NCBI GenBank assembly: GCA_019509685.1
Contig: JAEKLU010000265.1
Span: forward strand, 1-14,669
Source: Mesorhizobium sp.
GTDB taxonomy: Bacteria; Pseudomonadota; Alphaproteobacteria; Rhizobiales; Rhizobiaceae
Reading direction: 5' to 3'
Length of the DNA: 14,669 nt
Every line of letters starts with the position of its first letter. The stretch's first letter is position 1. Made by a program: the position numbers and the translations under genes. Below, piece after piece: positions 2,591 to 4,999 of this stretch. The notes below the pieces were generated by a model. The model was not told the DNA's origin and made no database searches. It saw nothing but the letters and a program-made list of their open reading frames with translations.

Positions 2591-3043
2591 ATGCTCAAAG
2601 GGATCAATCCGCTGCTCAATGCCGATGTGCTGCAAGCACTGCGGGCGATGGGGCATGGCGACGACCTGATCATCGCCGACACCAATTTCCCGGCCGATTC
2701 GGTGGCCAGGCAAACCGTGCTCGGAAAAGTGTTGCGCATCGATGCGTCGGCGGCCGAGGTGGTGAAAGCGGTGCTGTCGCTCTATCCGCTGGATACCTTC
2801 GTCAATGACGCGGCCGCGCGCATGGAGATCGTCGGCAAGCCGAACGAGATCCCGCCGGTGCAGAAGGAGGTGCAGAAAGAGATCGACGCCGCCGAAGGCA
2901 AGCCCTGGCCGATGATCTCGATCGAGCGCTACGCCTTCTACGAGCGCTCCAAGAAGGCCTATTGCGTCATCCAGACCGGCGAGCGCCGCTTCTATGGCTG
3001 CTTTGCCTTCCGCAAGGGCGTCGTGCCGCCGGATGCGGAGTAA
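2591..3043 (+). CDS. fucU: RbsD/FucU-family sugar mutarotase
   Basis: Cytoplasmic enzyme of the RbsD/FucU fold that speeds interconversion of sugar anomers, so that an imported sugar reaches the form its kinase or isomerase needs. The 150 residues match FucU length. The conserved N-terminal block MGHGDDLIIADTNFP (20-34) contains the catalytic-type histidine H22 and D30; the C-terminal block from R113 to F138 carries the aromatic residues (Y114, Y117, Y124, Y135) expected around the sugar site. GAGGGGA seven bases before the ATG fixes the start. It is four bases upstream of the sugar kinase gene, so the two are almost certainly co-expressed. The FucU form is favoured over RbsD by sequence, but the actual substrate (fucose, ribose or another sugar) is not proven. 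Confidence 0.88.
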   Translation: MLKGINPLLNADVLQALRAMGHGDDLIIADTNFPADSVARQTVLGKVLRIDASAAEVVKAVLSLYPLDTFVNDAAARMEIVGKPNEIPPVQKEVQKEIDAAEGKPWPMISIERYAFYERSKKAYCVIQTGERRFYGCFAFRKGVVPPDAE

Positions 3044-3047
3044 GACC

Positions 3048-3977
3048 ATGGCCATCGGAAAACCCATTGTTATCCTTGGCGTTTTCGTCGCCGACACGGC
3101 CTATCGCGCCGACCGGCAGCCACGCCTGGGCGAGACGATCCTCGGCAATTCCTTCAAGCTTGGGCCGGGCGGCAAGGGCTCGAACCAGGCGGTGGCGGCC
3201 GGCAAGCTCGGCGCCGACACCACTTTCCTGACCAGGCTCGGTGTCGATGCCTTTGCCGATATGGCCAGCCAGACTTGGAAGGGCGCGGGCGTCAAAAGCG
3301 CGGTCATCGACACGCCCGACAGCTATACCGGCGCCGCCTATATCTTCGTGGAAGAGGGCAGCGGCAACAACGCCATCATCGTCAGCCCAGGTGCCGCGAT
3401 GCTGATCTCGCCCGCCGACATCGAGGCGCATGCCGGCCTGATCCGCTCGGCCGGCGTCTTCGTCACCCAGCTCGAACAGCCGATCGATGCGGCTCTCAAG
3501 GCGCTTGAGATCGCGCGTGGGGCGGGGGTGACCACCATCCTCAACCCGGCGCCGGCAGCCAGCCTGCCGGATCGCATCTATACGCTTTGCGATTATGTCA
3601 CGCCTAACGAGACCGAGGCCGAGGGGCTGACCGGCATCAAGGTGTCGTCGCTCGAGGATGCCCGCCGCGCCGCCGATGCATTGCTGGCCAAGGGCGTCGC
3701 GGCGGTGATCGTCACGCTCGGCGAGAAGGGCGCGCTGCTGCACACGAAGGATCGCTCCGAGCATGTCGGCGCGGTCAGCGCCGGCGCGGTCGTCGAGACC
3801 ACCGGCGCCGGCGACGCCTTCAATGGCGGCCTGGCGGCGGCCCTCGCCAAGGGCGTCGAGCCGCTGGAAGCGGTGCGCTTTGCCTGCGCCGTCGCCGGCA
3901 TTTCGGTGACGCGTCCGGGAACGGCGCCTTCCATGCCGACGCTGCAAGAGGTCGAAGCGCTGCTGGCGCGGGCTTGA
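3048..3977 (+). CDS. rbsK: Ribokinase-type sugar kinase (PfkB family)
   Basis: Cytoplasmic ATP-dependent kinase of the PfkB/ribokinase family; it traps the imported sugar as a phosphate ester. The 309 residues are the usual ribokinase length. Motifs: the N-terminal GGKGSNQA (41-48) that contacts the sugar, NPAPA (166-170), NETE (187-190) and the signature TTGAGDAFNGG (251-261) with the anion hole and the catalytic base D256. GGAG (3037-3040) is placed seven bases before the ATG at 3048, four bases after the mutarotase stop; an in-frame ATG at 2994 would overlap that gene by 50 bases and is rejected. The motif set fits ribokinase well, but PfkB sugar kinases change substrate easily, so ribose is a likely rather than a certain substrate. 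Confidence 0.88.
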   Translation: MAIGKPIVILGVFVADTAYRADRQPRLGETILGNSFKLGPGGKGSNQAVAAGKLGADTTFLTRLGVDAFADMASQTWKGAGVKSAVIDTPDSYTGAAYIFVEEGSGNNAIIVSPGAAMLISPADIEAHAGLIRSAGVFVTQLEQPIDAALKALEIARGAGVTTILNPAPAASLPDRIYTLCDYVTPNETEAEGLTGIKVSSLEDARRAADALLAKGVAAVIVTLGEKGALLHTKDRSEHVGAVSAGAVVETTGAGDAFNGGLAAALAKGVEPLEAVRFACAVAGISVTRPGTAPSMPTLQEVEALLARA

Positions 3978-4012: not shown

Positions 4013-4037
4013 GGAACGCAACCACCGGGCGTGCGTT
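4013..4037 (+). promoter_or_regulatory. EcfG/RpoE2-type general stress promoter
   Basis: GGAAC (4013-4017), 16 bases, then CGTT (4034-4037) is an exact match to the alphaproteobacterial general stress response promoter (GGAAC-N16/17-CGTT, known from RpoE2 of Sinorhizobium and EcfG of related species). Transcription would start near 4044, about 40 bases before the 32-residue peptide gene. The same motif with the same spacing occurs on the other strand at 4745-4721. Confidence 0.75.
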
Positions 4038-4085: not shown

Positions 4086-4184
4086 ATGAAAAAAGCTTAT
4101 GAAAAACCGATACTTACGAGGCGCGGGAAGCTTAGCGAACGCACCGCGCAGATATCGGCTTCGGGTGTCATCTTGGGCGAGTAG
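4086..4184 (+). CDS. 32-residue peptide with lasso-type RiPP leader motif
   Basis: A short gene encoding MKKAYEKPILTRRG followed by KLSERTAQISASGVILGE. It fits exactly the leader consensus YxxPxLxxxGxxxxxT recognised by the RRE protein of lasso-peptide pathways: Y5, P8, L10, G14, T20. I recall orphan small proteins of this sort in Mesorhizobium being labelled putative RiPP precursors. The remaining tail after T20 is only 12 residues; it lacks the small residue at core position 1 and the Asp/Glu at position 7-9 that a lasso ring needs, so the product may be a leader-like peptide without a classical core. No maturation, protease or export gene is in the window. GGAG (4075-4078) lies seven bases before the ATG, and an EcfG-type promoter precedes it. 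The stop is 11 bases before the DUF768 gene, whose ribosome site overlaps it. Confidence 0.75.
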   Translation: MKKAYEKPILTRRGKLSERTAQISASGVILGE

Positions 4185-4195
4185 GAGCTGCCACC

Positions 4196-4417
4196 ATGAG
4201 CGATCGCGGCGTTGATTTCCTGGAAAGCTGGCTTGATGAGCACCTGCCCGCGGATCTGCCCGCCGATAGGGCCACCGCCAGGGTGCTGACGACGCGCATA
4301 GCGCTTGACGCACGGCATAGCGGTCTGGAGGTCGCCGAGATCGAGGAGGCGGTTGGTTCGCTCGAAGGCGTCATCCTCGAAGCCTTGGATGAGGCGGATC
4401 CGGATGGGCCTGCATAA
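4196..4417 (+). CDS. DUF768-family small protein
   Basis: A 73-residue acidic protein of unknown function. It begins MSDRGVDFLESWLDEHLP and has a mid-region around ARVLTTRIALDA and a C-terminal EIEEAVGSLEGVILEAL, an arrangement I recognise as the DUF768 family, known mainly from Mesorhizobium. No signal peptide or membrane segment is visible; the content suggests a small all-helical cytoplasmic protein. AGGAG (4183-4187) overlaps the stop of the upstream leader-like peptide and sits eight bases before the ATG, so the two should be co-transcribed from the EcfG-type promoter. A hairpin terminator follows 20 bases after the stop. Family assignment is from memory of the pattern, not from a search. 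Confidence 0.75.
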   Translation: MSDRGVDFLESWLDEHLPADLPADRATARVLTTRIALDARHSGLEVAEIEEAVGSLEGVILEALDEADPDGPA

Positions 4418-4484: not shown

Positions 4485-4688
4485 CTAAAGAATCCGGCTG
4501 GTCAGTTCCAGCATGGTCGTTGCGCCTTGCTCGCTGCCTGGCATGTGCACGACGCGCAGGACTCTGAGGTCCTTGGCTGATCCTTCGACCGGCATCGACA
4601 CGCTTTCGCCGACACGCGGCAATTCCTGGAATGCCAGCTCGTCCACGTCCCTGGCATCGTCAATTGAGATACGGCATCGCACAGCCAT
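4485..4688 (-). CDS. Conserved-looking 67-residue protein of unknown function
   Basis: I do not recognise this protein. It starts MAVRCRISIDDARDVDEL and contains the segments LPRVGESVSMPVEG and LRVVHMPG, ending in LELTSRIL. Alternating hydrophobic residues suggest a small beta-rich domain; there are no membrane or signal segments. The start at 4688 is preceded by GGGAGA (4696-4701 on the complement), which rules out the upstream in-frame ATG at 4754. An exact EcfG-type promoter lies 33 bases upstream, so it probably belongs to the general stress regulon. It converges on the leader-peptide/DUF768 unit, which has the same promoter type. Codon use and GC content look like those of the neighbours. 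Confidence 0.7.
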   Translation of the reverse strand: MAVRCRISIDDARDVDELAFQELPRVGESVSMPVEGSAKDLRVLRVVHMPGSEQGATTMLELTSRIL

Positions 4689-4720
4689 CTGATTTCTCCC
4701 GTCTTTTTGCCCTTGGGTGG

Positions 4721-4745
4721 AACGAGACAAGGATGGGATGGTTCC
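4721..4745 (-). promoter_or_regulatory. EcfG/RpoE2-type general stress promoter
   Basis: On the minus strand GGAAC (4745-4741), 16 bases, then CGTT (4724-4721): an exact match with the same spacing as the copy at 4013-4037. It points at the 67-residue protein gene, with a leader of about 25 bases. On the plus strand the same stretch reads GGAAC-N16-GGTT (4719-4743), one base from consensus, so the site is nearly symmetrical. Confidence 0.72.
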
Positions 4746-4838
4746 GAGAATCATGCCAGTCGACTATTTTGCCGACATGGCAGGCGCTCTGCGGCTTAAG
4801 TCGAGGCGTTGCCGATGCCGATGCCGCAGGAGAGATCA

Positions 4839-4903: not shown

Positions 4904-4924
4904 CATTTCTCCTGAGGAGAAATG
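4904..4924. repeat. Perfect 21-bp palindrome at the tRNA-Asp 3' end
   Basis: Ten-base arms CATTTCTCCT (4904-4913) and AGGAGAAATG (4915-4924) surround a single G at 4914. The palindrome overlaps the encoded CCA of tRNA-Asp by two bases. In the tRNA transcript it would form a stem directly after the mature 3' end, so it may act as terminator or processing signal, although only a weak T-tract follows. Confidence 0.6.
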
Positions 4925-4999
4925 GCGCGAGTGACGGGGCTCGAACCCGCGACCTCCGGCGTGACAGGCCGGCACTCTAACCAACTGAGCTACACCCGC
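4923..4999 (-). tRNA. tRNA-Asp (anticodon GTC)
   Basis: A 77-base minus-strand cloverleaf. The acceptor GCGGGTG pairs with CACTCGC (one G-T pair), the D-arm begins GCTCAGTTGGTTAGAG, and the anticodon loop CTGTCAC places GTC at 4965-4963. The T-arm GCGGGTTCGAGCCCCGT carries TTCGA. The discriminator is G and the CCA end is encoded (4925-4923). GTC reads both aspartate codons. It has its own promoter at 5042-5070 and diverges from tRNA-Val. Confidence 0.97.

Follow-up and report, generated by a model that had tools for sequence, protein, structure and literature searches.

A conserved peptide gene of Mesorhizobium with a stress-type promoter and a proposed family of linear RiPPs matured in trans

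Upon analyzing a stretch of Mesorhizobium sp. DNA of 14,669 nucleotides (hereafter the window), we determined that a 32-codon gene within it belongs to a family of precursors that share a lasso-type leader, and that is accompanied by a locus encoded elsewhere in the genome. This locus, here called locus B, comprises a stand-alone RRE, a lasso-type B2 peptidase, an HprK-like kinase and an NTP_transf_5 nucleotidyltransferase (NTase), and has no cyclase. We propose, at a probability of about 0.72, that locus B acts in trans on the family members to yield linear RiPPs, probably phosphorylated on Ser, and that the window member is regulated by the general stress response. A previous reading of the window from its sequence only had described the peptide as an orphan, a status that it loses, as the family tracks the RRE/B2/kinase/NTase locus.

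The peptide gene and its stress-type promoter

The features of the window that bear on this proposal are as follows.

2994..3977, forward strand: rbsK (ribokinase), outside the system, an upstream synteny anchor (TIGR02152, 310.3 bits against a cut-off of 299.65)
4013..4037, forward strand: EcfG-type (general stress) promoter, GGAAC-N17-GTT, beginning 73 nt before the peptide start
4086..4184, forward strand: precursor gene, 32 codons and stop, product MKKAYEKPILTRRGKLSERTAQISASGVILGE, dN/dS 0.087
4086..4148, forward strand: leader, codons 1-21, MKKAYEKPILTRRGKLSERTA, the predicted RRE-binding part, with a cut predicted after T20-A21
4149..4181, forward strand: core QISASGVILGE, in which Ser26 (codon 4161-4163), core position 5, is the predicted phosphorylation site
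4196..4417, forward strand: DUF768 gene, 73 aa, probably outside the core system (PF05589, 28.5 bits against a gathering cut-off of 27.8)
4485..4754, reverse strand: convergent 89-aa gene, outside the system, a synteny anchor found downstream of many rbsK-site orthologues
4923..4999: tRNA-Asp, downstream of the peptide gene

As the sequence-only reading had stated, Y5, P8, L10, G14 and T20 are all present in the product, and the DUF768 ORF begins 11 bases beyond the stop codon (4182-4184), whose TAG overlaps an AGGAG. The peptide itself falls under the NCBIfam lasso cut-offs (16.0 against 19 for the lasso leader domain NF033521, and 18.4 against 33), and only one of six relatives tested passes the NF033521 cut-off of 19 (at 21.9); we take 'putative RiPP precursor' to be the label that NCBI gives to such proteins. 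In 752 pairwise comparisons among 40 rbsK-site sequences, that of the window included, the median dN/dS was 0.087, and a pair differed on average at 3.78 first, 2.30 second and 11.69 third codon positions, a pattern that, together with the dN/dS, rules out a chance ORF. This selection, the codon-position bias and an EcfG site in 61 of 73 loci support the 32-codon ORF as a genuine conserved gene.

The rbsK gene lies upstream of 39 of 73 loci of the same type (best matches). In the closest orthologue (G136, 84% identity), both rbsK and the convergent gene are present and DUF768 is absent; the nearest compared genome to the window, G001, has 31% of sampled words in common with it. For the convergent 89-aa gene, neither Pfam nor NCBIfam gave a match at thresholds up to E 1. 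That no maturation genes lie nearby was borne out by tblastn of the window with the RRE, B2, cyclase, kinase and NTase of both Mesorhizobium clusters described below, the best match having an E value of 0.019 over 26 residues; an ABC-transporter query matched an unrelated ABC gene at 1501-2130.

The EcfG-type site upstream of the peptide gene was confirmed, and it is conserved. The motif GGAAC-N17-20-GTT was built for EcfG of Sphingomonas melonis, according to the part of PMC6599016 available to us. The Mesorhizobium site was found in 61 of the 73 window-type loci (best matches), against a random expectation of 0.012 per 150 nt, including 39/39 rbsK-site loci and 22/34 of the remaining ones. 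The spacer is 17 nt in all 61 loci, though 16 was permitted, and the site starts 51-83 nt ahead of the start codon. Twelve of the 73 loci are without the site in this form, one of which (L023) has it with an 18-nt spacer. No EcfG site lies within 150 nt of any of the 74 distinct family members that belong to other types, and all 60 genomes bearing a peptide with the site also have locus B. The window peptide is predicted to be under general-stress (EcfG) control. EcfG-like GGAAC-N-GTT matches, on both strands and nearly palindromic, were also seen at 4719-4745 of the window, at the start of the 89-aa gene, perhaps by chance.

Leaders and cores of the precursor family

A peptide match at E <= 1 was obtained in 105 of the 146 genomes of the genus, which also has peptides that join this leader to different cores, in some cases in tandem. 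From the best 74 rows of the genus search, 73 were kept as window type and one (G072:C83), of another core type, was left out; all 73 best-match loci belong to a single type, whose cores are exemplified by QIVASGVVLGE.

The pattern used to collect the wider set imposes Y, P, certain residue classes two and five positions after Y with a K or R near both, and S or T between Y+11 and Y+18, while it leaves free L, T and A at Y+11, Y+15 and Y+16, respectively, and the core Ser. Of these free positions, A at Y+16 and L at Y+11 each occur in 135 of 136 distinct peptides from the retrieved loci and T at Y+15 in 106; the sole peptide with another residue at Y+16, which probably matched by chance, was retained in n. 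G14 (Y+9) is not constant, being G in 68/136 peptides. The leader is near-constant and has 21 residues, and its Y, P, L and T fall at -17, -14, -12 and -2, respectively, the positions that the accessible part of PMC10368454 gives for lasso leaders. Because these positions match, the cut is predicted after T-A.

The cores vary more widely, and share a serine. All 135 clear Mesorhizobium cores have Ser within the first eight residues, and 103 have it at core position 5 (shuffled mean 17, maximum 30). With the window type excluded, Ser still occupies position 5 in 41 of 73 cores (shuffled mean 10.5, maximum 20), the other 32 having another residue there. In other genera, Ser5 is found in 9/35 cores and is missing from 26/35, and all 35 have Ser or Thr within the first eight residues. 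Residues that would allow a lasso ring (G/A/C/S at position 1, D/E at 7-9) were found in none of the 136 cores of the Mesorhizobium set, in agreement with the previous observation that the tail of the window peptide lacks ring-forming features. The identity of the window gene as a RiPP-type precursor is thus supported, as is its lack of lasso-ring residues.

Maturation genes were sought beside the tandem precursor arrays and rejected, as none of nine scanned neighbors matched a RiPP enzyme in Pfam. In L039 (17569-19403), a precursor (MKKQYSKP...) starts where a cNMP-binding/pyridine-nucleotide reductase gene ends, and this type of precursor is also present in L040, L052 and L056.

Locus B and its co-occurrence with the precursors

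PF13471 (B2 type) was found in 113/146 genomes of the genus, usually in two copies, and the B2 of locus B in 97/146. Precursor matches were present in 97/97 locus-B-positive and 8/49 locus-B-negative genomes, all of them related genomes of one genus, so that P values for this co-occurrence do not stand as probabilities. At E <= 1 the 97 positive genomes together contain 796 matches, between 2 and 26 each with a median of 8, and the five among them that have the B2 of locus B and not that of locus A, the lasso cluster described below (G056, G072, G086, G143, G146), contain 6-13 each. Of the eight locus-negative genomes with a match, six have one or two weak ones (E 0.02-0.43), and two, G059 and G139, have strong matches of window type. 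These two loci (L017 and L010, respectively) have no EcfG site, and their peptides may be relics or users of locus A.

Outside the genus, the B2 of locus B was detected in 17 of 340 genomes sampled from the same bacterial family, from 9 genera, at 40-53% identity. With profile A2, which includes peptides from some of the tested relatives, precursors were found in 16 of these 17 (not G384), compared with 0/36 locus-negative genomes, which were the first of the list rather than a random draw and include two of the same genus as a positive. The locus has all four genes in 14 of the 17 relatives; one lacks the NTase, one lacks the RRE, and one has the B2 only. Among named records with the B2 of locus B, nearly all of which are Mesorhizobium (for which reason we take the genus surveyed above to be this one), the RRE, B2 and kinase are present in 63/63 and the NTase in 62/63. 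In a flank of roughly 6 kb around locus B, a cyclase homolog was found in one of the 63 records and in 0/17 relatives. The exception, an uncultured Roseovarius record (L239), may throw light on the relationship between the two cluster types.

Clear precursors lie near the locus in 9 of the 17 relatives (14-15 kb read), with up to ten in a row, and G187 is a tenth by profile; in records of Mesorhizobium or its kin, precursors occur in the locus-B flanks in 22/57. Of the 150 best-listed peptide matches, 148 are in locus-B genomes, 49 of them on the same contig as the locus, and none of the 148 is within 20 kb of it, the nearest being 181,680 bases away; these listed matches are the most window-like, and the locus-adjacent precursors are less so. 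Taken jointly, adjacency and co-occurrence tie the scattered peptides to locus B. Of the lasso proteins that the sequence-only reading proposed to look for elsewhere in the genome, a stand-alone RRE and a lasso-type B2 were found in related genomes, but the cyclase was not found at locus B. We infer that locus B is present in the window strain too.

Three of the four locus-B proteins exceed curated cut-offs: the RRE (PF05402, 43.1 bits against 23.4), the B2 (NF033537, 68.8 against 33) and the NTase (PF14907, 96.8 against 31.2). The nearest solved relatives of the RRE by sequence are TfuB1 (E 9.2e-6) and TbiB1 (E 0.0087), and the B2 residues C74, H111 and D124, which we take to be catalytic, are kept in 4/4 aligned sequences. 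The kinase falls under its cut-offs (PF07475, 23.3 against 33.3; TIGR04352, 29.8 against 200). Its profile finds HPr kinases at E 0.0029, and the best fold match of its model (mean pLDDT 89) is to PEP carboxykinases (E 3.9e-9), with no HPr kinase among the best 50 fold matches; the PEP carboxykinase and HPr kinase folds are related. The putative kinase is assigned on a weak profile, a P-loop and the predicted fold, of which the P-loop is no independent finding, since the 14 kinase ORFs were chosen by it.

In the scheme that we propose, EcfG would transcribe the peptide gene under stress, and the RRE, encoded elsewhere, would bind the Y-x-x-P-x-L leader. The kinase would phosphorylate a core Ser (Ser26 in the window peptide), the B2 would cut after T20-A21 and free a linear 11-residue core, and the nucleotidyltransferase may add to or extend the phosphate; DUF768 would be dispensable. 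The phosphorylation and leader-removal steps are suggested by likeness to the LPPs of Bacillota and to BsfA, both discussed below, and a role of the product as a stress peptide, either secreted or in the envelope, is conjecture. Several observations count against maturation in trans: G384 has the locus but no precursor match, G059 and G139 have strong window-type peptides without it, and 3/17 relatives are without a detectable RRE, NTase or all but the B2.

Alternative readings and known systems

The sequence-only reading had cast DUF768 as a possible partner that handles the peptide, and the two genes might form a unit in which DUF768 handles or senses it. In favor of this, transcription from the EcfG site would cover both genes, and the pair does recur: in 5/34 window-type loci away from rbsK (G009, G019, G046, G074, G087), a DUF768 gene 65-74% identical to that of the window lies 7-29 nt downstream of the peptide, at one common chromosomal site distinct from the rbsK site, where the ORFs upstream, judged by eye in all five, are presumably pseudouridine-synthase-like and phosphoglycerate-mutase-like. 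However, DUF768 is found downstream of 0/39 rbsK-site orthologues, and together these counts rule it out as an obligatory partner; the lack of a conserved peptide-DUF768 linkage, which the sequence-only reading had named as its refutation, thus largely holds, although a minor cassette remains, in five genomes and the window. The 0/39 and 5/34 counts and the second common site therefore define the pair as a recurring minority cassette at two sites, which either moved or arose by two gains of DUF768. Furthermore, at E <= 0.001 DUF768 occurs in 137/146 genomes of the genus (in 105 above the cut-off), peptide-less genomes included, with 15 matches in G059, which lacks locus B. Its predicted structure is a small fold of four helices, for which a fold search of the PDB gave nothing at E <= 0.001 and a sequence search nothing convincing. 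We consider a handling or sensing role for DUF768 very improbable. As separate observations, the pair with its EcfG site was seen at the second site in L046, L047, L112, L120 and L123; DUF768 is a multi-copy family in the genus, with up to 15 matches per genome, sometimes in tandem (e.g., L042 15602-16029); and a terminator discerned by eye downstream of the DUF768 gene was not called by a terminator scan, so that we make no claim of it.

The window peptide might instead be matured by the other cluster of the genus. Locus A, present in many genomes of the genus, is a complete lasso cluster (RRE, B2, cyclase, HprK-like protein and ABC transporter) whose cyclase scores 763.6 bits with NF033535 against a cut-off of 525. 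Its RRE is of the same family as that of locus B, its own precursor shares the YxxPxL and T(-2) leader, and a single window-type peptide occurs in each of G059 and G139, which carry locus A and lack locus B. But that precursor, of ring type, adjoins the RRE of locus A, the lasso ring fits 0/136 family cores, and a peptide match is absent from 9 of 12 checked genomes having only locus A; these 12 were picked by eye, G017, G021, G127 and G160 being left out for other or weak B2 matches. We have therefore set locus A aside as the machinery and regard this reading as unlikely. A similarly small chance attaches to the idea that the stress-induced peptide is a decoy, whose leader would occupy the common RRE and shut off the other precursors while yielding no product itself. 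A leader common to all family members and an EcfG site in the window type alone (61/73 versus 0/74) would suit such a role, but the core is conserved beyond what a decoy needs, as TAQI[IV]ASG[VI][VI]LGE or a close variant in most of the 73 loci. A lasso cluster of this complete kind that includes an NTase lies beside polysaccharide-type genes in G084 (L105, 6510-14098) and at homologous loci of many genomes of the genus, its lasso precursor being 50 aa long (MEQNVEKHEYETPSLTVHGSIETITQ-GASGTTALD...).

Linear, locus-B-dependent RiPPs, our preferred reading, have their nearest published counterpart in the LPPs of Bacillota, for which the part of PMC13381572 available to us reports as shown that phosphorylation of core Ser3 depends on the kinase and that the leader is removed, and states in its discussion that the function is unknown. 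According to the same part of that text, LPPs and locus B have in common a stand-alone RRE, an HprK-like kinase, an NTP transferase and the lack of a macrolactam cyclase, and both systems have a [Y/W]xxP leader and often a lasso cluster in the same genome. They differ in that LPPs are cut after T(-1) by a signal-peptidase-type enzyme, as opposed to a lasso-type B2 with T at -2 here; in that LPP clusters contain 1-3 precursors with the phosphate on core Ser3, whereas here many precursors are scattered and Ser5 is predicted; and in that LPPs are restricted to Bacillota, while the present family is Alphaproteobacterial and has one member with a stress promoter (PMC13381572). By reading, the window peptide and the family consensus match only YxxPx[L] of the LPP precursor motif YxxPxVLxHQxIxFETxxS, and the accessible text of PMC13381572 contains no Proteobacteria, Pseudomonadota or rhizob-.

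The phosphorylated lasso peptides BsfA, with phosphate on core Ser3 (PMC10368454), and paeninodin (cited in PMC13381572) are described, in the parts of these sources available to us, as having an RRE and B2, an HprK-type kinase and YxxPxL at -17 to -12, as here, but also a cyclase and a Gly1-Asp8-type ring, neither of which was found here. More generally, the YxxPxL motif and T(-2) of the leader, together with its cognate RRE and B2 (predicted for the window strain), are those of lasso peptides, whereas ring residues are missing from the family and cyclase C from locus B. Prochlorosins, in the accessible part of PMC10783134, work alike, with several precursors and a solitary promiscuous enzyme, but are not of the same family, being ProcM lanthipeptides with Nif11-type leaders from other bacteria.

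Among the open-licence PMC papers listed by our searches, we found no account of the system in Mesorhizobium, nor of DUF768. Genome mining for precursors beside enzymes would miss the family, because 0/148 listed matches lie within 20 kb of locus B. That these peptides form an Alphaproteobacterial class of linear phosphopeptide RiPPs, whose many precursors, scattered and each under its own regulation, depend on a single chromosomal RRE-B2-kinase-NTase set and make up a modular repertoire with the window member as its general-stress output, is a proposition to which we give even odds. If it is true, rhizobia would make sets of short phosphorylated peptides via one common enzyme set, one peptide of the set would be tied to the general stress response, and cyclase-less lasso-like RiPPs would be given a directly testable role.
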